A stretch of DNA of 64,000 bases. It comes from Pelagomonas calceolata (lineage: Eukaryota; Sar; Pelagophyceae; Pelagomonadales; Pelagomonadaceae). The stretch is taken from contig CAKKNE010000003.1 of NCBI GenBank assembly GCA_918797485.1, forward strand, positions 1,922,001 through 1,986,000. Reading direction: 5' to 3'. Below are positions 1,811 to 62,223 of this stretch, piece after piece. Below the pieces are notes generated by a model. It made no database searches, was not told the DNA's origin, and was given only the letters and a program-made list of their open reading frames with translations. A program made the translations under genes and the position numbers. Within the stretch, counting starts at the first letter, position 1; every line of letters begins with the position of its first letter.

Positions 1811-1831
1811 CTAGTGCCTTTCGACGCTAGC
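1811..1831. promoter_or_regulatory. CTAG palindrome, divergent TAF8/glutaredoxin intergene
   Basis: The arms CTAGTG and CGCTAGC flank an internal CCTTTCGA. This is a copy of the recurrent intergenic palindrome (consensus GCTAGTG, TCTTAC, short spacer, CGCTAGC). It lies 128 bases before the glutaredoxin ATG and 238 bases before the TAF8 ATG. Confidence 0.6.
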
Positions 1832-1959
1832 TGCGCTTTCCTCTCCCAACATCAAACTCGCTTGCGCGGCCGGCTCTGAGCTTTATACGTGGCTGCGAGC
1901 TGCTTTAAACTGCACTTGACACACGCCGCCGCAGAACAACTTCGCTGCTTACGATAGAA

Positions 1960-2513
1960 ATGCGTGTGCTCCGAGTTGCTGCCTTGGTGGCTGCGGCCAA
2001 TGCATTCGTGGGCACCCGCGCGCGAATTCAAGCCGCAGGACTCCACGCCGTCGACGCGAAGTGACGATTTCGCACACAGGTGGCACCGCTCGCCGCGCGG
2101 CGGCCGGTCGCGGTCCGCGGCGCGCCCGAGGACGCCGCCGACGCAAAGATCGACTCCTTCGTCAAGGATAATAAGGTGCTAAAAACGGCGTCCGAGGCGA
2201 CGCACGCCCCCCAAACACGCCATCGACGCGCCCCGCGCAGGTCATGCTCTTCATGAAGGGCACGAAGATCTTCCCCCAGTGCGGTTTTAGCAATATGGCC
2301 GTGCAGATCCTCAACGCGATCGGCGCCGATTTTGAAACGTGCGACGTTTTGAGCGACGACTTCATCCGCCAGCAGATCAAGGTCTACTCGGACTGGCCGA
2401 CGATCCCGCAGCTTTATGTGGACGGCGAGTTCGTGGGCGGGTCCGACATCATGCTGGAGATGTACCAGGCCGGGGAGCTGCAGGAGATGATCGAGGTCGC
2501 GGCGGCTTCCTAA
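1960..2513 (+). CDS. Plastid-targeted monothiol glutaredoxin (three exons)
   Basis: Proposed exons are 1960-2007, 2080-2175 and 2241-2513, all joined in phase 0, giving 138 residues. The N-terminus [19 protein letters not shown] is a signal peptide followed by an ASAFAP-like site, the bipartite plastid presequence of red-lineage secondary plastids. The mature part is a CGFS-type glutaredoxin: [10 protein letters not shown], then VMLFMKGTK, the active site PQCGFSN, the glutathione-binding [19 protein letters not shown], and a normal C-terminus. CGFS glutaredoxins bind and pass on [2Fe-2S] clusters; plant GRXS14 is the plastid counterpart. The first exon cannot be read through because an in-frame TGA lies at 2062-2064, inside the first intron. 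The splice choice was made by frame and by the targeting motif. Confidence 0.82.
2008..2079 (+). other. Intron 1 of glutaredoxin, introner-like
   Basis: This 72-base GT-AG intron starts GTGGGCAC and the next exon starts GTGGCACC, a near-copy that could be an old 8-base target duplication. Inside it, the left end CCGCGCGCGAATTCAA and the reverse complement of the right end (CTGTGTGCGAAATCG) resemble each other and the terminal repeats of the introners at 10599-10754 and 46119-46194. It also holds CACGCCGTCGACGCG at 2044-2058, one base from a 15-mer found in other introns. Confidence 0.55.
2176..2240 (+). other. Intron 2 of glutaredoxin
   Basis: A 65-base intron runs from GTGCTAAA to CCGCGCAG and splits KDNK from VMLFMKG in phase 0. 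It carries the exact 15-mer CACGCCATCGACGCG at 2216-2230. No clear terminal inverted repeats are seen. Confidence 0.75.
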
Positions 2514-2557
2514 GGTATGGGTCTTTGTCTAATTAGTTCTTGCCATGTTTATCTAGA

Positions 2558-2810
2558 CTAGCTCGTCGACGGCGTCTCGCGGGCGCAGAGCGCGGCTCGC
2601 GCGTTTTGCAGGGACCCCTCGATGTTCTTTGTGAGGGGATGCGCGCCACCAAACACGCGCCGCGCGGTCCGTTCCGTTTCCTCGAGCGTTGTTGCGGCCT
2701 CGCGGAGGTCGTCGAGCGTGGTGGCGGCGTCGTGGTAGAGCGACTGCGCGTAAGGCTCCCGGCGGCTCGTCAGTCTCCCGACCCCACTATCTCGATTATT
2801 CGGACTTTAG
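2558..2810 (-). pseudogene. C-terminal fragment of a TPR-repeat protein
   Basis: On the minus strand an open frame without a start codon encodes about 80 residues: LYHDAATTLDDLREAATTL, then EETERTARRVFGGAHPLTK and NIEGSLQNARAALCARE, ending at a stop in 2558-2560. The RRVFGGAHPLT motif is typical of kinesin-light-chain-like TPR repeats, and the same pattern (RAKRVFGPSHEIT) occurs at 35276-35794. Upstream the frame closes near 2815 and no further repeats are visible, so this is probably the broken end of a larger gene. A last exon of a gene with distant upstream exons cannot be excluded. Confidence 0.6.
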
Positions 2811-3362
2811 AACTGAACCTGCGACCATCAGCCCGTGTACCATCCCCATGGACCTTGACGCGATCATTTGTTCCATGATCGATTGACTTGCGCGAGGTCC
2901 AGATCAAGATGTTCACGTCCCGAGCGTGGGCAGCCAAAAGTACCCTTCTTATAATGTAGATGTCATATACTTGTAATTGACTATCGCTGGGGTAGTATGG
3001 GGTCCAACGAGACCGCTACGGCGACTACTGGGGGCCCTCGGGTAATTGACGGTTTTGACGGGAACGGGGTGCCATTGGCCAATAGAGGTATAGCGCTGAG
3101 AGATGTATGTTAATTTGGAAGCGGCGGCGTAGGCGGCGTAGGCGATTGCACATGTGGAGTACCGACCCAAAACGACTTCCGGAAGGCTTCTGGGCCGCCC
3201 ATCGACAGGATTCCACCGATGCGCCCGCCATGGCGGCGTCGTCAATATCGCGAATAAAAAAAAATATTTTTTTCGCCCCCCAGTATGTGCCCCATTGATC
3301 TCTTTGGACCATTAGCGAACTGAACTGTACTAAGACGGCTGCATGCGGGCGCTCGAGTGCTT
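2811..3362. other. Intergenic stretch, no gene recognised
   Basis: About 550 bases with lower GC than the surroundings. It contains a short repeat of GGCGTAGGC near 3125-3150 and an A/T run near 3256-3275. Minus-strand open frames of 95-98 codons (for example 2949-3245) show no recognisable domain. It may be decayed gene sequence upstream of the TPR fragment. Confidence 0.5.
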
Positions 3363-3386
3363 GCTAGTGTCTTACGTGCCGCTAGC
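3363..3386. promoter_or_regulatory. CTAG palindrome upstream of lumen-protein gene
   Basis: GCTAGTGTCTTAC followed by a four-base spacer and CGCTAGC is a near-consensus copy of the recurrent element. It is 188 bases before the ATG at 3575. To its left is only the minus-strand TPR fragment. Confidence 0.65.
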
Positions 3387-3574
3387 TAACAGCAAGCACA
3401 GCACGGACTCGACAGCCTTGTAGACGGCCTTGCAGGACGCACAAGGATTTGCGAGCACGGCCGCACATCTGAAGCGAGAGACCGCAGTGGCGATCGATCG
3501 CTGCGACCAGTTGTCATCATCAGTAGCAGCCAGTAGCCAGCCTCAGCACTGCCAGCAGCACAGCCGCAATAACC

Positions 3575-4141
3575 ATGCGCCGCATCGCTCTGCTGGCGGC
3601 ATGCAACGCCGTCGCCGCGTTGCGACTCTCGCGGAGGCACGCCCTCGCCGGCATCGCTGCCGCACCGCTCGTGCCGGCGAACGCCTACGCGGCGGGCAAC
3701 CTGGGCGCGGCGCTCGCCGTGTTTTCCGCGTCCAATCCGACGGTGTCGCCGTTCACCGGCTTCTACAAAGACCCGGAGCACCTCGAGGGCTACCGAACGA
3801 TCAAGGCCGACAACTACGCGGGCACGCTGCAGGTGCGCGGCCGGGACAGCGCGGACGGCTCGGAGTTTGTCTTGGACGGCGAGATCATCTCTCAGTTCGA
3901 CGCCGTGATTGACTTCTCGCCGAAGGGCGGGCCGAAACGCCTCGCGGCGCGGTTCAGACTGCTACCGGGCGGCCGGCCAATACTGGAATTCCCGGACGGA
4001 AATGCCTGGGCACGCTTGTCCGACAAGCCCGACCCGAACGTGATGGCCGAGATCGAGCGCGACCGTATCGCGAACAGACCAATGTCGGCCGACACGCGGT
4101 CGGGCTTCGCAAAAGTGATGGGGGCTTTGTCGGAGAAGTAG
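3575..4141 (+). CDS. Putative thylakoid-lumen protein of unknown function
   Basis: The 188-residue product starts with MRRIALLAACNAVAALRL, which reads as a signal peptide. It is followed by SRRHALAGIAAAPLVPANAYA, a second hydrophobic segment headed by twin arginines and ending in an AYA signal-peptidase site. This layered presequence is what a nuclear-encoded Tat substrate of the thylakoid lumen would carry in a secondary plastid. The mature part (about 150 residues) has a beta-rich look (NYAGTLQVRGRDSADGSEFV, EIISQFDAVIDFSPKGG, RLLPGGRPILEFPDGNAWAR), but I do not recognise a family. It may be a photosystem- or stress-related lumen protein; that is inference from targeting only. Confidence 0.7.
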   Translation: MRRIALLAACNAVAALRLSRRHALAGIAAAPLVPANAYAAGNLGAALAVFSASNPTVSPFTGFYKDPEHLEGYRTIKADNYAGTLQVRGRDSADGSEFVLDGEIISQFDAVIDFSPKGGPKRLAARFRLLPGGRPILEFPDGNAWARLSDKPDPNVMAEIERDRIANRPMSADTRSGFAKVMGALSEK

Positions 4142-4240
4142 TTGTTTGGCGCGTAAGTGTGGGTAGGACTGTCTCGGGGTCTTGTCGCAGGATCAATCAG
4201 GATCCGGCCTTTTCGCGTATGCGCGCGCGCGCGCCCCTCC

Positions 4241-4260
4241 AAAAAAAACGGGTTTTTCAC
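4241..4260. promoter_or_regulatory. AAAACGGGTTTT motif upstream of RING gene
   Basis: The sequence AAAACGGGTTTTTC occurs here, 125 bases before the ATG at 4385. The same core recurs at 16978, 41538 and 50793, each time upstream of a gene that lacks the CTAG palindrome. Confidence 0.4.
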
Positions 4261-4384
4261 CCTAAGTTTTTCGCAGCGTGCGCGGCGTTGCCACTGTTTT
4301 TGCGACTTTGAGTGAAGGCTTCCAGTTCGCCCGAGCGGCGCCACGACCGCTCGTCCAATTTGCGGGGCCGAGCGGCGAGCGGCC

Positions 4385-5249: not shown

Positions 5250-5272
5250 GTATCAAGCTTAGTCCACCTAAC

Positions 5273-7132: not shown

Positions 7133-7363
7133 CGCTCGGGCAGCCCTTTGCCAGCTCCGATTCGAAGCCGCTGCCGGCCGGAACCCGAATTAAAATGTGA
7201 TTGTTCCGGCCGCCCGTCGAGGGCTTGCGAGCCCTCCGGCGAGTGCCAGACTGGTCCCAAGAGGCCAACGTTTTCGAAGCTGCCCGCATTAAATTTTCGT
7301 GTGACCGCGCATGCTCCGCGCGCGGGACGACACACCCGCGCACCCATCGAGGTATAGTGGCGC

Positions 7364-9627: not shown

Positions 9628-9850
9628 CCTTTGTCTTGCTGGCAGCCTTATCTTCGTCTTGCTGGCGGCTGGCGGCGTGGGGTTTCGACAGCCTTTTGGT
9701 GGCTGTTGTCCAGGGGCGCCGTGGACGGTCAAAGGGCTGCTCGGTTCGGCTGCGGGGCAGCCGTTGGCGATCGCTGCGGCGGTTTGGCGCCGTCTTCGTC
9801 CTGGGGCGCTGCGGTATCGGACAAAGCTTCGATCCCGTTGGGCCGTAATC

Positions 9851-9869
9851 CTAGTGTCTGTATACACTA
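9851..9869. promoter_or_regulatory. Diverged CTAG palindrome upstream of EF-hand gene
   Basis: CTAGTGTCTGTATACACTA matches, with a two-base gap and changed ends, the reverse complement of the copy at 37932-37955. It precedes the EF-hand gene only; the neighbour on the right ends here. Confidence 0.4.
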
Positions 9870-9926
9870 ACTCTGTCCACGGAAGATGTCAAATCCTGCG
9901 CTCCACTGACTCACATACAAGGCTCC

Positions 9927-11230: not shown

Positions 11231-11512
11231 CTGTATGCTTTTCAGTGGCGACTCCGAGGCAGCCTGTCCAAAATGCGCGTCGTGTACGGCGGCTCCGCGC
11301 AGTTGTCGTGGTGCGGGGCAGCCTGGCTCAAATGCGTGCGTAGTGTACGCGTTTTCGATTGATTTTCGCGCGCCTCGCGTCGAGGCACTGGCGCTCTGCT
11401 CGGCGCTGCTGCTGCTTGGAGCCGATCGTGCGGGAGCCATTGCGGGCACCCGGTCTAGGCGTCACACCGGGAGGGCTGCGATCCTTATCTGCACGCGTCG
11501 CAGAACGATTGA

Positions 11513-11535
11513 GCTAGCGTCATAGAGGCGCTAGC
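11513..11535. promoter_or_regulatory. CTAG palindrome between divergent genes
   Basis: Perfectly inverted GCTAGCG and CGCTAGC arms with a nine-base spacer TCATAGAGG; the TCTTAC core is lost in this copy. It is 189 bases before the SET gene ATG at 11725 and 282 bases before 11230 on the other side. Confidence 0.6.
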
Positions 11536-11724
11536 ATACGCAAGCCCCTACGGAGCTGTGGCTCAAGACACGGTGCGGCGCCGTCTCGTGCCGCTGTCGT
11601 TGAGTTTTGATAATTTCACATGTTGTGTGAGACCAGTGCGTGGAACACTGCCGCTAATTTGCGCGAATTGCGCTGTGCCGATCATATTTTGCTCTGCTGA
11701 CGACAGGCTGTGCACTCCGTAGCG

Positions 11725-12372
11725 ATGCGACTCGGCGGACCGGAGCCGGCAATAAAGGCCGCGACGCGCGCGGGCGACGACGCATTCTTCCTGCAAGCGC
11801 GGCTCGCCTGCATCTCGGTCGCGACGGTGTGCTTCGCCGCCGCTGCCGGGCTCGAGGGCCAAAAATTGGGCAGTCCACTCGTGGCCGCGTTACCCGGCGT
11901 CGCCGCCGCGGGCGCGCTTGCGTATCGTGCGAGGCCAGCCCTCGCGCTGACGCCACCGCTCGGTCTCGACGGCGACGTGGAGATCCGCGAGGCGCCGGGC
12001 AAGGGCGAAGGCCTGTTCGCTTCGAGACGAATCAAAGAGGGCAAATTCATCATGGATTACTTGGGTGAGGAGATGTCCGCTGAAGAACTTGACGAACGCT
12101 ACGAGAACTTGCTCGAGGCGAGGTACGCGCTGGAACTCACGGGCCCGCTCGGCCTGAATCCGAGCTACATCGACGCCGTGAATCCAGAACGTTCGAATCT
12201 CGGGCGGTATATCAACCACTGCTCGCGCCCGACATGCCGCAAAGTACGGCAGCGCTTCCCCGACCGGCGGCTCCGATTCTTCGCCGCGCGGGACATCGAT
12301 CCCGGCGAGGAGCTGACGTTTGATTATGGCGAAAGCTACTGGATAGGAAGAGAGAATGAGCTTGTTGAGTGA
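11725..12372 (+). CDS. Membrane-anchored SET-domain methyltransferase, copy 1
   Basis: 215 residues from the ATG at 11725; an upstream GTG at 11710 is not needed. Two hydrophobic segments (about residues 24-38, ARLACISVATVCFAAAAG, and 50-68, VAALPGVAAAGALAY) precede a compact SET domain. Visible SET motifs are GKGEGLFASRRIKEGKFIMDY (the SAM-site start), DAVNPERSNLGRYINHCSRP (the NHS/NHC substrate and SAM motif) and PGEELTFDYGESYW (the catalytic Tyr region). The family methylates lysines with SAM. Membrane segments ahead of a SET domain are unusual, so the substrate may not be a histone. Copy 2 lies 251 bases downstream on the same strand. Confidence 0.8.
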   Translation: MRLGGPEPAIKAATRAGDDAFFLQARLACISVATVCFAAAAGLEGQKLGSPLVAALPGVAAAGALAYRARPALALTPPLGLDGDVEIREAPGKGEGLFASRRIKEGKFIMDYLGEEMSAEELDERYENLLEARYALELTGPLGLNPSYIDAVNPERSNLGRYINHCSRPTCRKVRQRFPDRRLRFFAARDIDPGEELTFDYGESYWIGRENELVE

Positions 12373-12388
12373 GTAATCTTCCATGTTA

Positions 12389-12413
12389 GCTAGCGGGCCT
12401 GTAAGACACTAGC
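12389..12413. promoter_or_regulatory. CTAG palindrome between tandem SET genes
   Basis: GCTAGCG, a short spacer, and TGTAAGACACTAGC form a reverse-orientation copy of the element. It begins 16 bases after the stop of SET copy 1 and lies 210 bases before the ATG of copy 2. It is the only good copy located in a head-to-tail arrangement. Confidence 0.6.
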
Positions 12414-12623
12414 AAGCCACACGACTGCGCCGTGACTGAGACGCGTCATCGATCCCAATTGGGGAGTGCAACTTGGCAAAAGCTCTTGCAATTTGCACCG
12501 AGTCGCAAAGCACAGCAGTTGCAGCCACTCGCACAGCAAATACGCGTCGATTGTTGGGAGAGCAGCTCACATTGAAACTGGCTCTCCCTGCTAAAAAAGC
12601 GGCACGCCGCGCCTAACTCGAAA

Positions 12624-13335
12624 ATGCAGCCGCTGTCGACGAACCGCGCGACCGTCTCGCCGCCGGCGGGCGCCGACCAGCCGTTCATCGCCGCGCGGTT
12701 CGCCTGCTTGGCATTGGCGACGGTGTGCTTCAGCGCGGCGGCTGGCTTGGAGGGTTCGAAGATGGGTCAGCCCCTCGTCGCCGCGCTGCCGGGCACCTTG
12801 GCCGCGGCCGCGCTTGCGTATCGCGCGAAGCCCGCCCTCGCGCTGACGCCGCCGCTGACATTAGACGACGTATCAATAAAAGAGGCGCCCGGCAAAGGCG
12901 AGGGCCTCTTCGCGCGGCGACGGATAGAAAAGGGCGAGTTCGTCATGGTACGCGGCCGGCGTCCTCGATTGGTTTTTCGTGGTCAGCGTTTGATCACCTG
13001 CGTTGATGTCAACACAGGACTACCTCGGCGAAGAAATGGACGACGCCGCCGTGAACGAGCGGTACCGGGACCTCATCGAGGCGCGGTACTTGTTGGGTTT
13101 GCGGGGGCCACTCGGTCTCGATCAAACGTGGGTCGACGCCGTGAATCCTGAGAAATCGAACCTGGGCCGCTACATCAACCACGGCCGGCCGGCGTCGTTG
13201 AGGAAGGTGCGGCAGCGCTTCCCGGATAGACGGTTGCGCTTCTTCGCGGCGCGGGATCTCGAAGTTGGCGACGAGCTGACTTTTGACTATGGCGACGACT
13301 ACTGGCTCGGGCGGGAAAATGAGCTCCGGGAGTAA
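12624..13335 (+). CDS. Membrane-anchored SET-domain protein, copy 2, with intron
   Basis: Exons 12624-12947 and 13018-13335 give 213 residues closely similar to copy 1 along the whole length, including both hydrophobic N-terminal segments, so the pair is a tandem duplication. A 70-base intron (12948-13017) interrupts FVM|DYLGEE, exactly where copy 1 is uninterrupted. In the key motif copy 2 reads YINHGRPASLRKV where copy 1 has YINHCSRPTCRKV, so the residue after NH and a later Cys are lost. DELTFDYGDDYW is kept. Methyltransferase activity may therefore be weakened or changed. It converges with the ArgRS gene, ending 31 bases from its stop. Confidence 0.8.
12948..13017 (+). other. Intron present only in SET copy 2
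   Basis: A GT-AG intron running from GTACGCGGCC to GTTGATGTCAACACAG. The 3' end resembles the right ends of the introners nearby (GTTGATTTGTGCACAG). No target duplication is evident. Confidence 0.8.
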
Positions 13336-15966: not shown

Positions 15967-16120
15967 GGTGTGGCTGCTGAGGAGTGCTTACGACTACTGC
16001 TACTGCAGTGCTTACGTTGCTGGCTGCTGCGGCTTGCTGCTGCAGGAGTCCTTACGATCGCTGGCTGCCTCTGATGCACACGCGAGGCGAGCTAACTCCA
16101 AAATGCGGCTTCGCTTTTTT

Positions 16121-16143
16121 CTAGTGTCTTACATTACGCTAGC
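16121..16143. promoter_or_regulatory. CTAG palindrome between ArgRS and DUF3119 genes
   Basis: CTAGTGTCTTAC, a four-base spacer, and CGCTAGC form a near-consensus copy. It is 154 bases before the ArgRS ATG and 80 bases before the DUF3119-like ATG. Confidence 0.65.
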
Positions 16144-16223
16144 TCTCTGAGAGCACGAGCAGTGGCGAGCGATTCGCTGCCCATTTGAAGCGTGGCCGCG
16201 GTCGCACAGCAGTCACAGAGAGG

Positions 16224-16886
16224 ATGCTCTCCCAGCGCGCCGCCCAGCTCCTCCTGCTTGCAGGCCTCGCGGCCGCCTTCCAGCGCCCAGCGCTGCGGAG
16301 CGTCGCCGCGCCGCCGCGGACAGCGCTGCGAGCGTCCGCCAGCGATGTGACCATCGACAAGGACTTCCGATTAGCATTGGGGACGTGCGGCGTCGCGCTC
16401 GTCCTCGACCAGATTCCCATTATCAAGTGGCTGCCGGGCCTGCCCCTGACGCTTTTAGGACTACTCTTCCTCATCCAGACGTGAGTGACGGCGTCCACCG
16501 TCGACGCGACCGCGAGAGTATCGGAGCCCGGGCGCGCACGCAGGTTCCGCCTCGACTTTACCTTTGATGATGAGGCCTTCGAGCTCAAGTCGGGCGAGGA
16601 GGACATCGGCGAGAACGTTGTTGTGGGGGGAGCGAACCGGTGGGCGTACAACACGTTCGTCAATTACGAGACCTTCCCGAAGGGCTGGGACGTGCCCATC
16701 TTGGTGTATTTCAAGGAGACGCAGACGCCCGAGTCGCAGTGGGGCGTCGGGCCGGGCGAGATGGCGAATTCTGCCGAAGCGATTGCGAACGGCGCTGTAC
16801 GTGGACAAGTGCACTTCTTCCCGGCGATCTGCAACGCGAAGCAGATCACGGACGAGTTCGCGCGGCGGGGGTGCGGGAAGCTGTGA
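16224..16886 (+). CDS. DUF3119-like plastid membrane protein
   Basis: Exons 16224-16480 and 16544-16886 (intron 16481-16543, donor GTGAGT) give 199 residues. The N-terminus MLSQRAAQLLLLAGLAAAF|QRPA is a signal peptide plus ASAFAP-like plastid site. A hydrophobic pair of segments follows (LALGTCGVALVLDQIPII, LPGLPLTLLGLLFLIQT), then FRLDFTFDDEAFELKSGEE, ENVVVGGANRWAYNTFVNY and GQVHFFPAICNAKQITDEF. This pattern matches the DUF3119 family of cyanobacteria and plastids, whose function I do not know. It is likely a thylakoid or envelope membrane protein. The intron carries CCACCGTCGACGCG, close to the 15-mer seen in other introns here. Confidence 0.75.
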
Positions 16887-24447: not shown

Positions 24448-24593
24448 TTTCCAGTCTGCCAGTCTAGGCAATCTTGGGAGCCGAGCGCGAGCAGCGACAG
24501 GAGTGCACCGCAGCGCTGGCGTCGCGCGGAGCACTCGTTCAACGCGCGCAGCACAGCGGTGTCGTGCACACGCTTTTTTTGGCGCCTCGCGCT

Positions 24594-24618
24594 GCTAGCG
24601 GCCTGGTAAGACACTAGC
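24594..24618. promoter_or_regulatory. CTAG palindrome between NLR-like and channel genes
   Basis: GCTAGCG, a short spacer, and GGTAAGACACTAGC form a reverse-orientation copy. It is 146 bases before the NLR-like ATG at 24447 and 423 bases before the channel ATG at 25042. Its position also argues against the longer GTG start at 24534. Confidence 0.6.
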
Positions 24619-25041
24619 AAGAAGTTGCCCACGGGTTTTTGCCCGTGGAAAACCGAGCCACCAATCCAAGCACTCGTCAACGCCGCCCCCGTACCCCTCG
24701 CGTGGCGCGTCGCGAGCCGCGGCGGACTGCACACTGTTTTGAGGCGCCCTGGCACCGCCGCTGGAACCGCGACGGCGGTAACGGCGCGCGCACGTACGGA
24801 GCGGGCGCAGTTGCGCATAGATCCGAGAAACGGCTCCCGTCCTCGGCACGCCCCACGCACGTATTCAGCTGCCCCCAGCGCAACAGCCTAGGCGGCGAGG
24901 GGCTGCCTCACCCTCCGCGACCCCGCGCAAGACGCGGAGCACGCGTACGGAGCTCGCCTCTCGCTCCCTAAACACGGCACGTCGTCCTTCGCCTCTCACA
25001 AATCACAAGTCGGTCGAAACGCCCGCGCCGCGTAGGACGGC
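24619..25041. other. Intergenic region upstream of the channel gene
   Basis: No gene is recognised. A small hairpin, CCACGGG at 24629-24635 and CCCGTGG at 24642-24648 with a T-rich loop, lies next to the palindrome. The rest is GC-rich with no coding pattern I trust. Confidence 0.45.
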
Positions 25042-30319: not shown

Positions 30320-30630
30320 GGCAGCAGCACGTCTTAAAGCTGGGCTGCGACCGTCGTCGTGTGCGTGATGGGGAGTGAGTACTCCAACGCGTCGGTGCGC
30401 AGCGTTATTGGAATTTGTTGGGCAGCTCACGTTGCGGAGAGCAGCTAGCTCGCCGCTGCTCTCAAAAAAAAAAAACGGTTGAAGTTCAACGGCGCCAATG
30501 GCTCCCCGCGCGACACGCGATGTCTCTCCGCGCGGGACTCGGCCAAGTAGTCCTAGCACCGACGGGCATATTAAATCAGTCTCGATGCGACGCCGTCGGA
30601 GGTGACGTCGTGAGAGGCTACCGCACAGCA
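30320..30630. other. Intergenic region upstream of the FG-GAP gene
   Basis: 311 bases between two minus-strand genes. An A-run of 12 is at 30466-30477. Neither the CTAG palindrome nor AAAACGGGTTTT is present. No gene seen. Confidence 0.5.
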
Positions 30631-31674
30631 TTACACATATTCTATCCTCTCATGGTCCCACGCGTTTCCGAGGCGCGGCGACGGCGTGAGGCTCTTCGCG
30701 AGCCTCCGCAGGCACTTTGATTTGAGCACTACGGCGCGCGGTTCCAGGGCCGCGCCGAGCGATCGCGCGAGGGCGAGGGCGTCCAAAGTACCGTCCGCGC
30801 CGGAAAGGCCGCCGACGTCCACAAATACGGCATCCCAGGGGCCCTCTGCCGCGAGGCCGCCCACGCCCCAGGCGTCGCCGACCCTGAAGTCAATTGTCGG
30901 GTGTTGTCCCTTTGCCGACGCAATAATTGAGGGCCCAACGTCAACCCCCATCGCGTAGCCGCCGGGACCGACCGCCTCGGCGAGGATAGCAGTAGTGGTA
31001 CCGAAGTGGCACCCCAACTCTAGGATGCGATCTCCGGGCCGGACCACGGTCTCGATGCAGTTCCGGTACTCGCGCACGCCCCTCGCGCCGACTATCACGG
31101 GTTGCGCTTCGTAGATGCGTGTTTCGTCGAGGCTGGGCCGTTCGTCGTGCATTTGTAGTATGCGGGCGATGCGTTCCAAATCGTCTCCAGCGGCCAGTCT
31201 CCCGGCAAGTGTAGCTAGCGCTGAGGAGCGAACGAGGACTGTGGGCGGCGTTTCTTGGCGCCGCCGCAGCGCCTCGCAGAGCGCCAGCGTATCGAGCGGC
31301 AGGTCGAAGCCGAGCAGAGCCGCCGCGTCGACGACGACGCAATCGAAGCATTCGTCTGGTCGCAGGACTGCCGTGACGTCGCCAGCACGCGTCAGTGGGC
31401 GAAAGTCGGTCACCGCATCGCTCTGAAAGAGCTCTCGCCTGCTCCGCGACTCTTTGCGCGGCACGTCCACACTCACGACGCGATTCGCGAGACGGTTGAG
31501 CATCTCAATTTGACTTCCAAGCGCCAGCCCGGCACACAGCACACGGTCACCATCACTTATCAGCTGTGGAGCCACCCGTTCGAGCTCGCGCGCCGACGGT
31601 GCTGCAATTATGCCTGTCGGAGCGTGCAAAGCTGCAGCGAGGCCTAGCGCGCAAAGGAGTAGCGCATGCATCAT
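30631..31674 (-). CDS. SAM-dependent methyltransferase-like protein with N-terminal targeting sequence
   Basis: 347 residues from the double ATG at 31674/31671. The N-terminus MMHALLLCALGLAAALHAPTG is a signal peptide whose end resembles a plastid ASAFAP site (ALHAPT), so a plastid or secreted location is possible. Residues about 210-340 form a class I methyltransferase fold: GDRILELGCHFGTTTAILAE (SAM-binding loop), AMGVDVGPSIIASAK and WDAVFVDVGGLSGADGTLD. The first half (RVLCAGLALGSQIEMLNRL, DCVVVDAAALLGFDLPLD) looks like a second, degenerate copy of the same fold. The family transfers methyl groups from SAM; the acceptor cannot be told. It is divergent from the GH95 gene. Confidence 0.72.
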   Translation of the reverse strand: MMHALLLCALGLAAALHAPTGIIAAPSARELERVAPQLISDGDRVLCAGLALGSQIEMLNRLANRVVSVDVPRKESRSRRELFQSDAVTDFRPLTRAGDVTAVLRPDECFDCVVVDAAALLGFDLPLDTLALCEALRRRQETPPTVLVRSSALATLAGRLAAGDDLERIARILQMHDERPSLDETRIYEAQPVIVGARGVREYRNCIETVVRPGDRILELGCHFGTTTAILAEAVGPGGYAMGVDVGPSIIASAKGQHPTIDFRVGDAWGVGGLAAEGPWDAVFVDVGGLSGADGTLDALALARSLGAALEPRAVVLKSKCLRRLAKSLTPSPRLGNAWDHERIEYV

Positions 31675-31764
31675 GGGGCGGAAGCAGGCATCAGTACGAG
31701 TGCACGAGAGCGTCTGGGCGAGCGTTGCGCTGGTCTAGGGCCCTTTCAGCAGGCCTGGCTGCTT

Positions 31765-31787
31765 GCTAGTGTGTTACAGCCGCTAGC
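31765..31787. promoter_or_regulatory. CTAG palindrome between methyltransferase and GH95 genes
   Basis: GCTAGTGTGTTAC followed by AGC and CGCTAGC. It is 90 bases before the methyltransferase ATG and 165 bases before the GH95 ATG at 31953. Confidence 0.65.
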
Positions 31788-31952
31788 TACGTTTTTTGTT
31801 TTTGCGGTTTTGCTGCCGACCAGCGGCTGTGTGCATAGCAGGCATGCTCAGAAGGAAGCACTGATGCTCAAGGAGGCGTAGAGTTGTGCTCACCCAGTTC
31901 TAGCCCTCTGGCAGCGGTGCTCGCAGCTAGTTCGACAGGGAGCAAAGCCGGT

Positions 31953-37675: not shown

Positions 37676-37931
37676 TCTTAGCGCTGCGACTGCGTTGTGC
37701 ACCCCTTGTCTCGAGCCTTAAGCCTTGTCGTACGTTGTTTGGTGCGTACGGCCACGCGAAGCCAAAAATGCGCTGCGGGGCGCACTGGGCAGGGCGGTGT
37801 TAAAGCGCCGGAAATTCGGGCCCGCCAAGTTCAAGCGCTGGCCGGTACCCGCTGGAAGGTATAAGCCGGGTACGAGGCGCCCGTTTGTGGCGTGTATGAG
37901 CGCTTTGAATAAAGTGCGTTCTCCGCACTTA
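37676..37931. other. Intergenic half-region upstream of the PH-PX-EDR2 gene
   Basis: No supported gene. Open frames on both strands (for example 37718-38077 on the minus strand) have no domain and overlap the palindrome, so they are probably not coding. Confidence 0.45.
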
Positions 37932-37955
37932 GCTAGTGTATACAGACACACTAGC
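37932..37955. promoter_or_regulatory. CTAG palindrome (GCTAGTGT...ACACTAGC) between divergent genes
   Basis: The most symmetric copy: GCTAGTGT and ACACTAGC arms with ATACAGAC between. It is 148 bases before the SEL1-like ATG at 38104 and 256 bases before the ATG at 37675. Confidence 0.6.
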
Positions 37956-38103
37956 AATTTGAGAGCCGGCAAAAATCGGCAGCCCGGGCGTCCAGACTGC
38001 ACCGGGCAGCCCGCGGCAGCGTCAAAAACGGCCGGCGTGCCGGTCGCATTGCGCCGGCGCCGCAGCCAGGCACGCATTGGTCTGGCCTTGGAGCATCACA
38101 ACC

Positions 38104-43738: not shown

Positions 43739-43917
43739 CGCTTCGGCGCTGTGCTGCCTATGCTGCCAATGCAGTGGATATGGCGCTGTTTCGAGTTTGA
43801 GCTAGCGCAGCCAGCTATTCGCGGTGAGAGCAATGCGTGCGTTCAGGAATGATGGCAGCTCGCGTCGCAGCGTTCGCATGCGGCCAATTTCCACAGCGCC
43901 TTCGCGCATCGAGCAAG

Positions 43918-43941
43918 GCTAGTGCCTTACAGGCCGCTAGC
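43918..43941. promoter_or_regulatory. CTAG palindrome between VTT gene and gene at 44099
   Basis: GCTAGTGCCTTAC followed by AGGC and CGCTAGC. It is 179 bases before the VTT ATG and 157 bases before the ATG at 44099, close to the middle. Confidence 0.65.
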
Positions 43942-44098
43942 GAGCGTACCCGTCCAAACCTCACGGGCCGCAGCACACCGCTCCTGAAGACTCGCCCCGC
44001 GATGATTCGCGGGCCCGACCCAGGCAGGCCAAACCGTTTGGGAGCGCTGCACACCAGCTGGTAAATCGGCTGCCCCTCGCAGCCGCCGCGCCGCAGCC

Positions 44099-50810: not shown

Positions 50811-50847
50811 GCGATTTTGATGGACATATCTAGACAGACAAAGCACA

Positions 50848-52188: not shown

Positions 52189-52380
52189 TTTTTACTCGCG
52201 TTGGCCAGAGCAGGTGAGGTGCTGCAGTGTGCAGCAGTCCTGATATCGATTTTAACGGCAGTAGCAGTCGACAGCTGTCCTCAGCGGAATCACAGAGATG
52301 CTCCGCACAGCAATGCAAAGCGGCAAACTTACCTATGCGAGTTGCACGCCCACTAGAACGCCACGCCAAAAAATAATCGA

Positions 52381-52403
52381 GCTAGCGTTCTGTAAGACAC
52401 TAG
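52381..52403. promoter_or_regulatory. CTAG palindrome between helicase and EF-hand genes
   Basis: GCTAGCGTTCTGTAAGACACTAG, read as GCTAGCG arm, spacer, and GTAAGACACTAG arm. It is 192 bases before the helicase ATG and 92 bases before the ATG at 52496. Confidence 0.65.
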
Positions 52404-52495
52404 GAATCTAGGCATCGTGTGCGGCGGGCTGCCTCCAGGCTTCCTTCCCCGAGACTAGACCTGCGCCACGCATCGCGGGAGGGGCGAGGGCAGCC

Positions 52496-54265: not shown

Positions 54266-54621
54266 ACGGAACTCGTCACGGCGCGCGGCCCGCTCCTCGC
54301 CACCGCCATCCTCGAGGACCGGCGCCACGCAATAGGCCACTCTAGGCCGGACAGCCCAATTCACTTCCCCCCATCGTCATGTTCATGATCGCTCTCCGAG
54401 TCGCTCGGGACGGACCTACTCCGCCCTTCGACCGCTGGCTCCCCTCCTCCCTGAACCGCTCGGGCCTCCGCCCTTGACCATGGACTTCATCAAACATACT
54501 AGCGTTCTGTAAGACACTAGCTAGCGTTCTGTTGCAGCTCGACCAGCCTAGACACCCGCACGACTAGCGCAATACCGCCCCGACGCTCTCATCGAGGGTT
54601 CCGAATGCACACATGAATATT
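54266..54621. other. Convergent intergene holding palindrome copies
   Basis: No gene is supported. A full palindrome copy (54498-54521; ACTAGCG arm, then TGTAAGACACTAGC) is directly followed by a partial one (54520-54535; GCTAGCGTTCTGT), sharing the bases GC. A 51-codon minus-strand frame (54497-54342) starts next to the palindrome; two other minus frames are also open nearby, so coding is doubtful. Confidence 0.5.
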
Positions 54622-55614
54622 TTAGCTATCCGAATCGAGACGCGCAAACAGCGCACGAACCGCGTCCCGCGGCGGCGCCGTCCGCGCGAGGTCGAGGACG
54701 CGGTCGTCGTCGCGGGACCGATGGCGGATCATATGCTCAAAAACGGTCGGCGCGTCGCGGCGCCCGCAGAACTGGGACGCGACGGCGCAGGACGGCTCGA
54801 GGGCGTAGGTCTGGTGCCACGACTTTGGCGGCACAATCACCACATCGCCGGCGAATTGCAGCGCCGTGCAGAAGCGCCCCGGTACTTGCGTCGATGGCGT
54901 AAAGTTCTCCGGTCCCGCTTTGGCCTTGACGAGGTCCCGGTCGTCTTCGAAGTCGGCCGCGTCGGGCCAGTCGCCTTCCTGAACACAATACAGGTCGATG
55001 TCGGACTGCGTGCCAGCACTATCGTCCCCAAAGGCCTCGCTCGGCAGTTTGTAGGCCTCGAGATCGGCGTCGTCGACGTCGAGCAGGAACCGCCAGACCT
55101 TGGAGCCCTCCAGGCAGAGCGACGTGCCCGTCCAGTCGTAGGGGTCCCTGTGGAGCGGTGATCGCGCGCCTGCGCCCGCGCAGACCACACAGGCGTCCGC
55201 CGGCCGCCGCTCCGCTGGAAACGCGTCGAGCCACGACTCCTCTCCTTCGAAAATGGCGCGCTGCGGCGCGATTGCGGCGGCGCGTAAGTTGCCCTCGAGC
55301 AGTGCCTCGTCGAAGAGGAAATGTGGCGTTTCGTGGGTCGACGCCAGCGCGTCGTAAAAGAACTCCGCGAGCGGCGCGTCGAAGGGGTCGCCCGCGATCT
55401 GCTGGGTCACGATGGCGTCGCCGAACCCCTCCATGAGGTTACCAGTCCACGCGTCGCAAGCCTCAGGGCTCAATGCTCCTGCCGCGACAAATGGTTGTCC
55501 GCTATCTAGCGCCGCACGGATGGCCGGCGCATCTTTGGCATCGATGCGTGCGGCCCACGAGTGCGCATTCGCCGTCGCCGCGATGGCGTGAAGCGCGAGC
55601 GCGGTGCGGCGCAT
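54622..55614 (-). CDS. JmjC-domain (cupin-like) oxygenase
   Basis: 330 residues. The N-terminus MRRTALALHAIAATANAHSW could be a weak signal peptide. The JmjC/cupin core has the iron-binding HxD in RSPLHRDPYDWTGTSLCLEG and the distal His in GDVVIVPPKSWHQTYALEPS, with SKVWRFLLDVDD between. These are 2-oxoglutarate and Fe(II) dependent hydroxylases or demethylases. The small size and lack of chromatin-reader domains suggest a protein hydroxylase of the JMJD6/JMJD8-like group. The start codon lies directly after, and in frame with, the stop of the upstream small zinc-ribbon frame (TAG GCC ATG), so the two may share one mRNA. Confidence 0.78.
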   Translation of the reverse strand: MRRTALALHAIAATANAHSWAARIDAKDAPAIRAALDSGQPFVAAGALSPEACDAWTGNLMEGFGDAIVTQQIAGDPFDAPLAEFFYDALASTHETPHFLFDEALLEGNLRAAAIAPQRAIFEGEESWLDAFPAERRPADACVVCAGAGARSPLHRDPYDWTGTSLCLEGSKVWRFLLDVDDADLEAYKLPSEAFGDDSAGTQSDIDLYCVQEGDWPDAADFEDDRDLVKAKAGPENFTPSTQVPGRFCTALQFAGDVVIVPPKSWHQTYALEPSCAVASQFCGRRDAPTVFEHMIRHRSRDDDRVLDLARTAPPRDAVRALFARLDSDS

Positions 55615-55617
55615 GGC

Positions 55618-55869
55618 CTACTGACCCGGGAGGTCAAAGCCGACGAACGTCAGGATTTTTTTTGCGACTTCCGCCCGGTTTGCTGCGTGCTTCCGCAGGA
55701 GATCAGCGAGTTGCGGTTTCAGCTTGCGGCGCCGCGCCTGCCTTGCTTTCAGGTCCGCTGTCTGTTCCTCTGCTGTACGTGCAAATAGGGACTCATTATA
55801 GCACTGGCCGCAGGTTCCCGTAAAAGATAAACCAGGAATTGGTAGGTGGCAATTAATGCAGCGTGGCAT
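55618..55869 (-). CDS. Small zinc-ribbon protein upstream of JmjC gene
   Basis: 83 residues: MPRCINCHLPIPGLSFTGTC begins a CxxC...CxxC zinc ribbon (CINC, CGQC), followed by a basic helical region (KARQARRRKLKPQLADLL) and KKILTFVGFDLPGQ. The family is not recognised. It ends 3 bases before the JmjC ATG in the same reading frame, separated only by TAG and GCC. This could be a two-cistron transcript, a leaky-stop fusion, or a sequencing error in a fused gene. Confidence 0.55.
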   Translation of the reverse strand: MPRCINCHLPIPGLSFTGTCGQCYNESLFARTAEEQTADLKARQARRRKLKPQLADLLRKHAANRAEVAKKILTFVGFDLPGQ

Positions 55870-55914
55870 GGCGCGAGTGGCGCCCGCGTCGCCGCCGCTC
55901 GACCGCGATGCGAA

Positions 55915-55935
55915 TTAGCGTACTAACATACTAGC
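55915..55935. promoter_or_regulatory. Weak CTAG palindrome between zinc-ribbon and J-domain genes
   Basis: TTAGCGTACTAACATACTAGC resembles the GCTAGCGTTCTGTAAGACACTAGC form with several changes. It is in a divergent gap, 45 bases from the ATG at 55869 and 136 from the ATG at 56072. Confidence 0.35.
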
Positions 55936-56071
55936 CCTCATTTACACCCAGCCCAACGTCGAGCCCAAGGGCAGCCCGTACGCCACAACTCGCTCATCAT
56001 CTGGGCGCAAACGAGCCCACCGGTCGAGCTAAGGCAGCGAACGAAACGATGGCAGGCAGCCCCAGCTGACA

Positions 56072-57553: not shown

Positions 57554-57555
57554 CT

Positions 57556-58608: not shown

Positions 58609-58856
58609 CGTCTTTGCTGTGTTTTTTTGTTGCTCAGCTGATAGCCTTCCCGGTGAAATTCGACCTGTTCACGCAGCGTGATATTTTTTGCTGTGCTCTG
58701 TTTTTGCTGTGAGGGCTGCTCAGCTGCTGGTATGCTGAAACTCGAGCTTTTCTCGCTGCGCGCGACGCGTGCGATATCACGATCGCTCTGGTTCTTGCGA
58801 AACGCGCTCCCACAGGCGACTGGGCAGCTTTTTTTGCTTGCAAAGCCAAGGCATCC

Positions 58857-58875
58857 CTAGTGTCTTACCGCTAGC
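58857..58875. promoter_or_regulatory. Short-spacer CTAG palindrome between divergent genes
   Basis: CTAGTGTCTTACCGCTAGC: the two arms with no bases between TCTTAC and CGCTAGC. It is 248 bases before the ATG at 58608 and 169 before 59045. It lies inside the long open frame that starts at 58769, which argues that coding starts at 59045. Confidence 0.65.
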
Positions 58876-59044
58876 GTGGTCACCACTCCCGCAAACGATC
58901 GAGCACCATCCCGGCTGCCCGCATAAACACAGGGAGAGGTCTCGCCGGCCTCAAGTTTCGTTGAAGAATGAAGGCCCAAGTTTTTCAGATGCATCACTGT
59001 GCCTCGACTGCACGGCACCGCGCCATGGGCGCGCCGCCCGGAGG

Positions 59045-60388
59045 ATGCTGACGCAACCCGCCCTGGGGGGCGCGGCCGGGGGCTACAGCCTCTTCAGCGG
59101 CGCCGCGGCGCCGCCGCCCCCCCAGCCCCATGCGCTCCCAGGTTCGCTGGCGAATATGCCGGGCGCGGCGGCGCCGCCGCCTATACCAAACCGCAGCCCC
59201 CATCCTGTAGCTTCGCCGAACCTACAAGATGCGCCGCGAAGCGGCACGTCAAGCCTCGACACCACGCCCAAGCTCGGGGACCGCGCCACCCTCTTCGCGA
59301 GCCCGTCCAATGAACCATCAACCATGTTCGACGGCGACACGAAGCTCATGCCCTACGTCGACTGGGTCGCGGCCCGCATCCGAGCGCTGGGTGGCGTCGC
59401 GACGTCGGCCTCGCTCGGTAGCACGCTCGCCGTCGAAAGCGCGGAAAATTACAATATGATCAAGGTCCACTTCGGTGGTTTATGTGGTCTGTTGTCGCGG
59501 TACCCCGAGCGGTTTCGGTTGCTGCACGACAAGCCCCTGAACCACGTCGCGGTGGTCGGTCCTGCGGCGGTCTCGTCGTCAGATGACGATGTTCCGCAAG
59601 TAGAACCGCGGTGGCTGCGGCAGCAACGGAGAGCGGCTCCTGTGGAAAGAGCGACGCGGGAAGACGAAGCTGCCGTGGTGCGCGAAGTGGTCAACATTTT
59701 GGCATCGGCGTCGGAGAACGCTTTAACCGCCGTGGACCTGTCGAACGCCCTACGAGCTCGATTAGGCGTCGGTGCGCTTAGTCGTGTTAGAGCGTCGCAC
59801 GGCGGTTTGTTGACCTTCCTCGAGAAATCAGCTGGTAGGGTCCGAGTGGTACGTGTCCCGAAGCATGACGTCGTAACACTGGCGCCCGTCGAGTCAACAC
59901 CGGTCATGCCCGGGGCTTTGCGAGCGGAGGCGGCGGTCTTCTCTCCGCAATTCGTGGAACCTGCGGTGCCTGTGGTGGACGACGGAAAACCGGCCCCGAA
60001 GCAGTGCATCGGGCCCGCGCGCCAGAAGCCCATGGGCGCCTCGTCGTTGTTTCCAGCGCCGCCACTCTTCCCGCAGCAGCTTTCACAAGGTTGTCAGCGG
60101 CAATTGGCGCGCTTAGCGGCGGAGGACTACGCGCCGACGATGCCGTGGCCTAGGGATGCGGTCCATGATCAAGGCATCGTGCGGACGGTCTTGGAGTGTC
60201 TGCGGGCGCAGTCGCCGCGACCGTCGACGCTCCACAAGATCCGGGCGTACTTGAGACGCGTCTACGCCCTGCAAAGTTCGGTCAAGTCCGTTCCCCTCAG
60301 AGCGTTACTGACGGCGTACCCGCAGCTTTTCGTGATCGACGGGACGTCCGTCGCCGAGCGCTCTCACGTCAAAGTGCCGTCTTTTTGA
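59045..60388 (+). CDS. Protein with three winged-helix (LOTUS/OST-HTH-like) repeats
   Basis: 447 residues from the ATG at 59045 (MLTQPALGGAAGG). After a Pro/Ala-rich start come three similar helical units. Unit 1 (about 105-165): VDWVAARIRALGGVATSASL, then KVHFGGLCGLLSRYPERFRL. Unit 2 (about 215-275): VREVVNILASASENALTAVD, then RASHGGLLTFLEKSAGRVRV. Unit 3 (about 375-435): VRTVLECLRAQSPRPSTLHK, then VPLRALLTAYPQLFVI. The pattern of a variable three-helix core plus GGLxxLLxxYPxxFxL resembles LOTUS/OST-HTH domains, which bind RNA or helicases. An RNA-related role is inference. Linkers are acidic or Pro-rich. Confidence 0.6.
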   Translation: MLTQPALGGAAGGYSLFSGAAAPPPPQPHALPGSLANMPGAAAPPPIPNRSPHPVASPNLQDAPRSGTSSLDTTPKLGDRATLFASPSNEPSTMFDGDTKLMPYVDWVAARIRALGGVATSASLGSTLAVESAENYNMIKVHFGGLCGLLSRYPERFRLLHDKPLNHVAVVGPAAVSSSDDDVPQVEPRWLRQQRRAAPVERATREDEAAVVREVVNILASASENALTAVDLSNALRARLGVGALSRVRASHGGLLTFLEKSAGRVRVVRVPKHDVVTLAPVESTPVMPGALRAEAAVFSPQFVEPAVPVVDDGKPAPKQCIGPARQKPMGASSLFPAPPLFPQQLSQGCQRQLARLAAEDYAPTMPWPRDAVHDQGIVRTVLECLRAQSPRPSTLHKIRAYLRRVYALQSSVKSVPLRALLTAYPQLFVIDGTSVAERSHVKVPSF

Positions 60389-60863
60389 CGGTCTTGTTCA
60401 TTATCCCCCTGTATGTGTGCCTCCCTTACCGACGCACACACACCGTCCATAGTATCTGAAGTAAGTTTGTACATAACCTGGTTCTTGTCCATCTCGGCCC
60501 GTCGCGCCGCGATGCCATCGATGCGGGAATTCACCCTGGTTAGACACCCTGGTAGTAGCGGTGGCCCGGATCCACTCGCGGCGCGACGGCGGCCCGCGTG
60601 CGATGGCCGCGGCGACGGCGTGACGGCGAGATGTACGCCCGTCGCGGCGACGGCGTGCCCACAGGATTATGCCGCCCCCACGCCGTCGACGAGACGCGTA
60701 CCCACGCAGGGCCGGGGAATACGGAACGGACCTCTGGCCTGCGGCTGCCCGCAGCGGCCTGCCTAAATACGGTCTCGTGGGCTGCCACCGTCGCGCCGCC
60801 ACGCAGCAAGAGCGGGAACACACGCACTCCATCCACAGCAGTATATATATATAGCAGCGCACG
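60389..60863. promoter_or_regulatory. Upstream region of thioredoxin gene with TATA-like run
   Basis: No gene is supported in these 475 bases. TATATATATATA at 60842-60853 ends 10 bases before the ATG at 60864, too close to be a normal TATA box but the only such run in the window. Neither recurrent promoter motif is present. Confidence 0.35.
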
Positions 60864-61259
60864 ATGGCCACCGCCCCGGTGGAAGCCATTGCCGACGCCG
60901 AGGCCTTCGGCGCCTACCTCGAGAAGTCCGAGACGGTCCTGGTGGTCATGGACGTGCACCAGAACTGGTGCGGCCCCTGCGACACGATGAAGCCGACGTA
61001 CAACTCCATCTTCAACGAGATCGACAATTGCGAGGACAAGGTCGCGTTTACGACGGCCGACATCAAAACTCTCACGCCGCAGCTCGTGGAGCTCATGGCC
61101 ACCAAGCCGTCAGACTTGGACCTGGCGAACCACGGCTGCATGCCCTTCTTCCTGCTGGTGAAGAACAAGGCCGTCGTGGCCATCGTCCTCGGCGCGGACG
61201 TGCCCACTCTCAGAGATAACGTCGTCCTCTACGCGCCGGAGGACGAGGCGGCAGAGTAA
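60864..61259 (+). CDS. Thioredoxin-domain protein (TXNDC3/dynein-type)
   Basis: 131 residues with a thioredoxin fold: VLVVMDVHQNWCGPCDTMKP carries the WCGPC active site, then DKVAFTTADIKTL and the cis-Pro loop HGCMPFFLLVKNKAVVAIVL. VDVHQNWCGPC resembles the thioredoxin domains of TXNDC3/TXNDC6 and outer-arm dynein light chains more than housekeeping thioredoxins. The C-terminus is acidic and there is no targeting signal. It would reduce disulfides in the cytosol or at cilia. It converges with the next gene, 6 bases between stops. Confidence 0.78.
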   Translation: MATAPVEAIADAEAFGAYLEKSETVLVVMDVHQNWCGPCDTMKPTYNSIFNEIDNCEDKVAFTTADIKTLTPQLVELMATKPSDLDLANHGCMPFFLLVKNKAVVAIVLGADVPTLRDNVVLYAPEDEAAE

Positions 61260-61265
61260 TCTTTT

Positions 61266-61901
61266 TTATAGTAGTCCTAGGCCCGCGCGGAGCGATGGTT
61301 CGAGTGATCGGGGCACGGCTATGGATGCGTCGCACGCGTAGAGGACCTCGCGTCCATCTCGGATGCAGTCCGCGAGGCCCTCGTCGACGCGGAGGCTCTC
61401 TGCTACGGTTATCGCGCGGTCCTTCGTGGGCCAGAAGGCGGTGGGGCCCCACGCATATGAGATAGAGCCGAGGGGCCAGATGGATGCTGCGGTGCCCCAC
61501 TGCGCCGCGGCTTCCGCGTTGGCGACGGCGAGGTGCGCCGTTCTCGCACGTGGTCCGGGCGCTTTGATTTTGTCTAATGCCGCGTCGAGCGACCGGAAAT
61601 AGGTTGCTGCCCGTGCCGAATTGTACGTAGCAGGGGAGTAGAGATCATACGGGTCGCGGCGCAGCGTCGGGCTCGCCTCGGCGACGCCGCGGTAGATGAA
61701 ACCGGCCTGGACGACCGCGCGGACCCAGTCGGGGTTTCCATCGGTTATTATTGCTTTGACCGCTTCTCCCAGTGAGATCTCTCGCACGGCGCCGTCGGTC
61801 GATGCACTCGCACTTGCTGCTCCGCCGGCGGTCGCGACGAGAAATGTTCGTCGATTCGGTGCGAGCGCTTGAACGCTCACGAGCAAGAGTAGCGCACGCA
61901 T
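61266..61901 (-). CDS. Putative thylakoid-lumen or plastid protein, unknown function
   Basis: 211 residues from the ATG at 61901; the longer frame upstream runs through the 22-bp tandem repeat and is unlikely to be coding. The N-terminus MRALLLLVSVQALAPNRRTF is a signal peptide with an ASAFAP-like ALAP site, followed by a twin-Arg hydrophobic segment, NRRTFLVATAGGAASASAS, typical of Tat-exported lumen proteins. The mature part is helical (SLGEAVKAIITDGNPDWVRA, SARAATYFRSLDAALDKIKA, RDRAITVAESLRVDEGLADC). I do not recognise a family; the size and layout recall small PsbQ-like lumen proteins, which is speculation. Confidence 0.65.
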   Translation of the reverse strand: MRALLLLVSVQALAPNRRTFLVATAGGAASASASTDGAVREISLGEAVKAIITDGNPDWVRAVVQAGFIYRGVAEASPTLRRDPYDLYSPATYNSARAATYFRSLDAALDKIKAPGPRARTAHLAVANAEAAAQWGTAASIWPLGSISYAWGPTAFWPTKDRAITVAESLRVDEGLADCIRDGREVLYACDASIAVPRSLEPSLRAGLGLL

Positions 61902-62025
61902 CACCAGTCGCGTGCTGGCAGCACTGGTGCTCTTGTCGTGAGCGCGAGCCACAGCGGCACGCCGACGACTACGACGAGTAGCACAACGCCCTCCAGTGGT
62001 GACATTGACCACACAGTGGCTGGGC

Positions 62026-62113
62026 CTCTCAGGCAATGGCTCACAAGCTCTCAGGCAATGGCTCACAAGCTCTCAGGCTATGGCTCACAAGCTCTCAGGC
62101 TATGGCTCACAAG
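62026..62113. repeat. Tandem repeat, four units of 22 bp
   Basis: The unit is CTCTCAGGC, A or T, ATGGCTCACAAG. Units 1-2 have A and units 3-4 have T at the variable place, so the array grew by two doubling steps or by pairwise copying. It lies in the divergent gap between the lumen-protein and glycosyltransferase genes, 90 bases from the palindrome at 62203. Confidence 0.95.
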
Positions 62114-62202
62114 CTTTGCATACGTGCCAGAAAATGTTCTTGCGTACCAATTCAATCCCTTTGCAAGTCTGAACCAAAAAAGCACCGCGGGAAGCAGGCT
62201 TA

Positions 62203-62223
62203 GCTAGCGGTGAGACATACTAG
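62203..62223. promoter_or_regulatory. CTAG palindrome between lumen-protein and glycosyltransferase genes
   Basis: GCTAGCGGTGAGACATACTAG is a reverse-orientation copy close to the short form at 58857. It is 163 bases before the ATG at 62387 and 301 bases before the ATG at 61901. Confidence 0.55.

Follow-up and report, generated by a model that had tools for sequence, protein, structure and literature searches.

A composite 26-bp element recurring upstream of Pelagomonas calceolata genes is a probable site of a general promoter factor

A short composite element of about 26 bp was found to recur in the gaps upstream of genes in a 64,000-nucleotide stretch of the Pelagomonas calceolata genome (C3:1922001-1986000, hereafter the window). 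The sequence evidence suggests that it is probably an orientation-independent composite site of a candidate general promoter factor, and that at a divergent pair a single copy serves both genes. The source genome comprises 32,445,274 bases in 8 contigs; the P. calceolata RCC100 genome paper reports 6 nuclear contigs totalling 32.4 Mb, a plastid contig and a mitochondrial contig, and an annotation of 16,667 genes with 0.45 introns per gene (PMC9481584). Gene context was assessed in a sample of 314 kb consisting of the window, C1:1,000,001-1,200,000 and C2:2,000,001-2,050,000, in which a purpose-built ab initio gene finder, which applied a fifth-order coding model to both strands and permitted introns, called 169 genes and 86 introns. 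Copies were detected using a weight model built from sites in this sample and in eight further loci, with gene context unused and a cut-off of 10 bits, and the controls were the reversed pattern or the reversed sequence.

The loose pattern, CTAGYGN{4,14}CRCTAG, occurred at 4,303 places genome-wide, or about one per 7.5 kb, compared with 134 for the reversed control, and the strict pattern, CTAGTGTCTTACN{3,8}CGCTAG, occurred 954 times on one strand and 935 times on the other, compared with none on either strand for its control. The weight model found 67 copies in the sample and two in the reversed sequence; 44 of the 67 were located between divergent genes, 10 in tandem gaps, 10 in predicted introns and three in convergent gaps, and none lay in a predicted coding exon. 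Counted by gap, a copy was present in 43/68 divergent, 9/29 tandem and 3/69 convergent gaps (divergent versus convergent, Fisher p 2e-14), and the loose pattern by itself gave 36/68, 7/29 and 3/69, respectively. Across five settings of the gene finder, the divergent share ranged from 41/66 to 43/68 and the convergent share from 3/66 to 3/69, with no exon copies. Laxer cut-offs placed three copies (8 bits) and five copies (6 bits) in coding sequence. A first-pass annotation of the window had proposed this genome-wide count and comparison of gap classes and had placed no copy inside a gene. In the sample the comparison favoured a promoter-region element, which was depleted from convergent gaps and from coding DNA rather than equally dense there. 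Enrichment between divergent starts with depletion from these two compartments is a distribution expected of bidirectional-promoter elements.

Within the window, all 15 copies listed by the annotation (13 strong, two weak) were present. A held-out weight model, whose 42 training sites all lay elsewhere than in the window, returned exactly these 15 at a cut-off of 8 bits, each scoring at least 12.5 bits, and found two sites, of 11.4 and 8.2 bits, in the reversed window; a long exact pattern gave seven matches at six places, with 0.02 expected. The annotation had counted a copy in 12 of 14 divergent pairs and concluded that almost every such pair is marked. Our gene calls gave 11/13 in the window, so that the high share stood and the exact counts did not, and the generalization did not extend to the other stretches, with 28/44 on C1 and 4/11 on C2. 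The two pairs named as exceptions, 7132/7364 and 46391/47086, indeed lacked a copy.

To describe the element, 62 sites were collected with the loose pattern, so that the CTAGYG and CRCTAG columns of the consensus were fixed by construction, and nine sites with a poor left half were removed, which sharpens the left half of the consensus derived from the remaining 53. This consensus reads TTGCTAGTGTCTTAC, usually about four bases such as AGGC, and then CGCTAGCT, with a spacer of 0 to about 5 bases between the two halves; the length from CTAG to CTAG was 22 in 38 of the 62 sites and ranged from 17 to 24. Among the 53 aligned sites, information fell to near background within about six bases outside the element, and farther out no strongly conserved column of the kind shared by transposon or introner flanks was found (maximum of 0.39 bits). 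The exact left 12-mer CTAGTGTCTTAC occurred 28 times in the sample and was followed by CGCTAG within 10 bases in 26 cases, by a near arm in one and by a poor arm in one; both halves therefore seem to be needed.

The two arms of the element are almost never alike. About 4,116 of the 4,303 loose matches had a TG arm paired with a CG arm (control of about 43), TG/TG pairs numbered 137 (control of 12) and CG/CG pairs numbered 50 (control of 79), and in nearly all genome copies TCTTAC follows the TG arm of one side, with the CG arm on the opposite side. The annotation had taken the apparent symmetry to suit a dimeric factor; the rarity of like-armed pairs genome-wide speaks against a symmetric dimer site, a palindrome with like half-sites.

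The distance of the element from the predicted starts was similar in divergent and tandem gaps. In divergent gaps, the median of the 88 distances to the two predicted ATGs was 185 bp, and the copies were more central than under uniform placement (mean shorter distance of 151 versus 102 bp), in agreement with the location that the annotation had given in the promoter region. For the 10 copies in tandem gaps, the median distance to the downstream ATG, calculated by hand, was 184.5 bp. Since tandem gaps carry the element at a similar distance, it is not special to divergent pairs, and the proposal that it marks such pairs as such was not supported: 9/29 tandem gaps, along with junctions hidden in predicted introns, contain it. 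The element might instead be a site of chromosome biology, such as a replication origin, an insulator, or a recombination or domain boundary, that is found in promoters because they are open. Its frequency of about one loose copy per 7.5 kb, its confinement to non-coding gaps upstream of genes and its long composite form would fit such a site; as transcription accounts more simply for the like distance to the ATG in divergent and tandem gaps and for the low number of convergent gaps with a copy, we regard this alternative as unlikely.

A single copy was present in 42 of the 43 positive divergent gaps and two copies in the remaining one, whereas two independent promoters per gap predict about seven two-copy gaps (chi2 11.5, p 0.0007); therefore, one copy seems to serve both genes. 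The TG side and the CG side were at similar distances from the ATG (medians of 172 and 195 bp, p 0.40, 43 sites). By hand count, 10 of the 20 copies in tandem gaps or predicted introns pointed the same way as the gene (6/10 tandem, 4/10 intron); the site is directional in sequence, yet its direction of use is random. The genes flanking the element differed in function as far as their Pfam domains show, and orientation independence at the promoters of unrelated genes is what characterizes a site of a general regulatory factor. Genes at divergent gaps with and without the element did not differ in the length of the coding sequence (p 0.46), and the coding score per base was slightly lower in those with it (p 0.007).

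The arms can pair, and the element could accordingly be read as an RNA signal, either a hairpin in the 5' leader or a splice-related sequence. A 27-base consensus folds as RNA at -10.4 kcal/mol (z -2.27), and TCTTACAG or GTAAGA resembles a splice site. An RNA signal is nevertheless very improbable, given the even split of directions relative to the gene and the rarity of the TG/TG and CG/CG combinations, which would pair better than the mixed arms that dominate the genome.

The ten copies in predicted introns look mostly like tandem junctions that were fused by the gene finder. The frame upstream of the supposed donor stopped within 14 bases of it in seven of the ten cases and within 46 bases in the other three, a sign that is weak alone because GTAA donors make stops; in 7/10, an ATG in the downstream frame preceded the supposed acceptor. 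Pfam matches on the two sides, compared for four of the ten copies, were dihydrouridine synthase versus PapD-like (the latter below the Pfam cut-off), methyltransferase 28 versus WD40, glycosyl hydrolase 28 versus a cold-shock domain, and no family versus a ubiquitin-conjugating match.

The strict pattern was also found in 10 stretches of contigs from other genomes. Three of these (L034, L036 and L038) come from the metagenome-assembled genome MED672 (NZGT01), and the other seven may be chance. The three contigs are labelled as marine Spirochaeta, yet long stretches of them match the Pelagomonas genome at 82-94%, and they appear to be pelagophyte DNA that was misbinned. L038 is collinear with C6:2,236,569-2,246,679 in blocks that are 83-94% identical, and on this basis we take it to be misbinned and to come from a relative that is probably a different species. 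It contains five copies of at least 9 bits, and all five gaps were aligned. In the first gap, which aligns poorly, strong copies are present in both genomes at the matching place in opposite directions. In the second, the copy is kept (35.1 bits in L038, 19.8 in Pelagomonas), and a repeat of about 160 bp adjoins it in L038 only. In the third, both genomes have a copy (16.3 and 39.5 bits, respectively), about 25 bp apart in poorly aligning sequence. L036 matches at 82-88% in three blocks, and an in-line stretch of 70% spans the place of the element; the 83% match of L034 ends before the element. MED672 holds 11 loose matches on seven contigs. The eight whole assemblies from which the 10 stretches come showed no overall enrichment of the loose pattern, which was mostly rarer than the control (matches/control of 11/40, 2/203, 2/60, 1/27, 1/3, 2/0, 4/45 and 6/6), and no viral contig contained the strict pattern.

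These comparisons bear on whether the element is the dispersed remnant of a mobile element, for example an introner end or a miniature inverted-repeat transposable element, that inserts preferentially in promoters and plays no part in regulation. There are thousands of copies, introns of introner length (about 210 bp) are reported for this genome (PMC9481584), and, of 13 copies (whole or partial) of a dispersed repeat of about 156 bp, seven end within 40 bp of an element copy, four of the seven sitting in loci chosen for carrying the element. Against this, the shared sequence is only about 26 bp long with unconserved flanks, positive divergent gaps almost always hold a single copy, one L038 copy is reversed at the matching place, and at another L038 gap the element copy is kept while the repeat beside it occurs in only one of the two genomes. 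We therefore consider a mobile remnant improbable, about as much so as a chromosomal site or slightly more.

Several observations weigh against the proposed role in promoters. The element was absent from 25 of the 68 divergent gaps, and just 4/11 carried it in the C2 stretch; it is thus not needed everywhere. Three copies lay in convergent gaps, one of them strong (54497). The share of tandem gaps with a copy varied from 1/5 to 20/78 with the setting of the gene finder, because introns and tandem gaps trade places, and all gene starts are ab initio predictions independent of the published gene models. The observed/expected CpG ratio, an indirect sign of a nucleosome array, showed no periodic depletion around 62 sites and only a local dip at 150-170 bp. 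In L038, the fourth gap has a weak copy (19.7 bits) that has no counterpart in Pelagomonas, the fifth is not comparable, and the copies in the second and third are weak on one side.

The promoter-factor reading envisages a composite double-stranded DNA site in nuclear promoters that would be bound by a sequence-specific factor or factor pair, with contacts to a left half that is long and asymmetric and to a right half that is short. The site would act whichever way it points, some 185 bp ahead of the ATG. At a divergent pair, the near-central copy would drive transcription both ways and so serve both genes; at a tandem junction, it would serve the downstream gene. Its likely job would be that of a general regulatory factor, keeping a shared promoter open and placing two starts.

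Copies in divergent gaps of the window were found on the plus strand at 1808-1832 (gap 1573-2243, 33.9 bits), 16118-16144 (between an arginyl-tRNA synthetase gene on the minus strand and a plus-strand gene starting at 16224, 43.3 bits), 31763-31788 (gap 31504-31952, 42.2 bits), 43916-43942 (gap 43739-44098, 34.6 bits) and 58854-58876 (gap 58609-59044, 35.8 bits, with a spacer of 0 between TCTTAC and CGCTAG). Those on the minus strand were at 11512-11537 (gap 11231-11724, 19.7 bits), 24593-24620 (gap 24448-25041, 40.9 bits), 37931-37957 (gap 37676-38103, TG/TG arms, 26.0 bits), 52380-52406 (between a DEAD-box helicase gene on the minus strand and an EF-hand gene on the plus strand, 44.6 bits), 55913-55937 (weak, gap 55615-56071, 14.5 bits) and 62202-62226 (gap 62006-62386, 19.9 bits). 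The copy at 11512 has CG/CG arms and may be chance, since this combination is no commoner than its control genome-wide. Plus-strand copies in tandem gaps were located at 3361-3387 (188 bp before the ATG at 3575, 46.3 bits) and 9848-9872 (weak, gap 9628-9926, 11.3 bits). A minus-strand copy at 12388-12415 (43.3 bits) lies between tandem plus-strand open reading frames (ORFs) at 11710-12372 and 12624-13151; the gene finder called this gap an intron of one gene, though it separates two ORFs. The exceptional convergent-gap copy is at 54497-54523 on the minus strand (37.1 bits), beside a minus-strand gene at 54622-55614 with a JmjC match above the Pfam cut-off. An extra GCTAGCG overlaps the end of this copy, and a small gene missed by the prediction perhaps starts here.

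In the window and in loci L009-L028 and L029-L033, genes lie on alternating strands with few exceptions, and some tandem junctions are hidden in predicted introns. Neighbouring gene pairs in the sample were 68 divergent, 69 convergent and 29 tandem, compared with the 1:1:2 of a random order; in 137 of the 166 pairs the genes were on opposite strands, which differs from one half with p about 6e-14 even when ten same-strand junctions are added.

A second element, GTTACGGTGCTAGGACTAGTGGGCGG, had six copies in the sample at up to seven mismatches and none in the reversed control. Of these six, four were found in tandem gaps, and the predicted introns holding the other two are probably tandem junctions as well. 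Every copy had the orientation of the genes, and three preceded a copy of the promoter element by no more than about 50 bp. The window copy, at 30540-30565 on the minus strand, is degenerate (seven mismatches of 26) and sense-oriented at a tandem junction; the others are at L009:4897, L016:7492, L017:2879, L021:6261 and L023:2270. With eight mismatches allowed, one further copy appeared in a divergent gap and the control gained one, and a 24-base form had 147 exact copies genome-wide and none in the control. Five further copies were found in L003, L005, L038 (two) and L045: the one in L045 and one in L038 lie between ORFs of their own strand, that in L003 follows an own-strand ORF, that in L005 is in a convergent gap downstream of an own-strand ORF, and the other in L038 is ahead of the first called ORF. 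The second element is perhaps a terminator or boundary. It usually heads the dispersed repeat of about 156 bp, which has at least 39 matches genome-wide and copies at L038:299-456, L045:3130-3285, L003:1345-1473 and L005:2197-2352.

The word GGCTGCC occurred at 2.38 per kb in divergent gaps with the promoter element and at 2.48 per kb in those without it (window and L009-L033), and at 1.39 per kb in tandem gaps, compared with 0.10 per kb in convergent gaps and 0.32 per kb in coding DNA. No TATA-like word was among the top promoter words listed, and the 400-bp upstream regions of 167 genes contained TATAA 21 times. Rfam gave no match in the window at the gathering score and none up to E 0.5 in L038, L003 and L045.

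A broader picture, which we hold tentatively and at somewhat less than even weight, is that the genome forms a chain of shared two-way promoters with near-strict strand alternation, in which the 26-bp composite element of a lineage-specific factor would open the majority and the second, sense-oriented element would mark the rarer same-direction junctions. The alga P. calceolata is very abundant in the ocean. With its thousands of copies, the 26-bp element could offer a handle on a main promoter factor of the lineage, and it might be used for predicting starts from the sequence and for constructing two-gene expression cassettes. It is unusual to find unlike arms and a variable spacer combined with a random direction and a central position between divergent genes, and this combination makes directly testable how one site can serve two genes.

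No description of such an element or promoter grammar was among the matches listed in a literature search that left subscription journals mostly outside, and the words 'promoter' and 'motif' did not occur in the searched Pelagomonas papers (including PMC9481584). For the 12-base left arm, a yeast paper on diphthamide was the only one among the matches listed. The introners of Aureococcus and Pelagomonas resemble the element in being many dispersed short sequences of the same lineage; as described, they are introns of about 210 bp inside genes, whereas the element is about 26 bp long and lies in upstream gaps with unconserved flanks (PMC9481584). The CGCG element TCTCGCGAGA of TATA-less CpG-island promoters in vertebrates is reported to activate transcription both ways from divergent starts (PMC6192621). 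It is likewise a short repeated promoter element, with bidirectional activity that is reported for it and would be expected of the algal element; it is a ten-base true palindrome, in contrast to the roughly 26 bp, unlike arms, variable spacer and other sequence of the algal element. The TCTCGCGAGA core is absent from the consensus TTGCTAGTGTCTTAC-N-CGCTAGCT, and the algal element is thus not a CGCG element. General regulatory factors of yeast such as Reb1, Abf1 and Rap1 likewise have widespread sites at the promoters of many unrelated genes. The Abf1 site is split, and the yeast sites are shorter than the algal element and of other sequence. The yeast factors are reported to limit divergent noncoding transcription (PMC9481977); the algal element, in contrast, is central between two coding genes.

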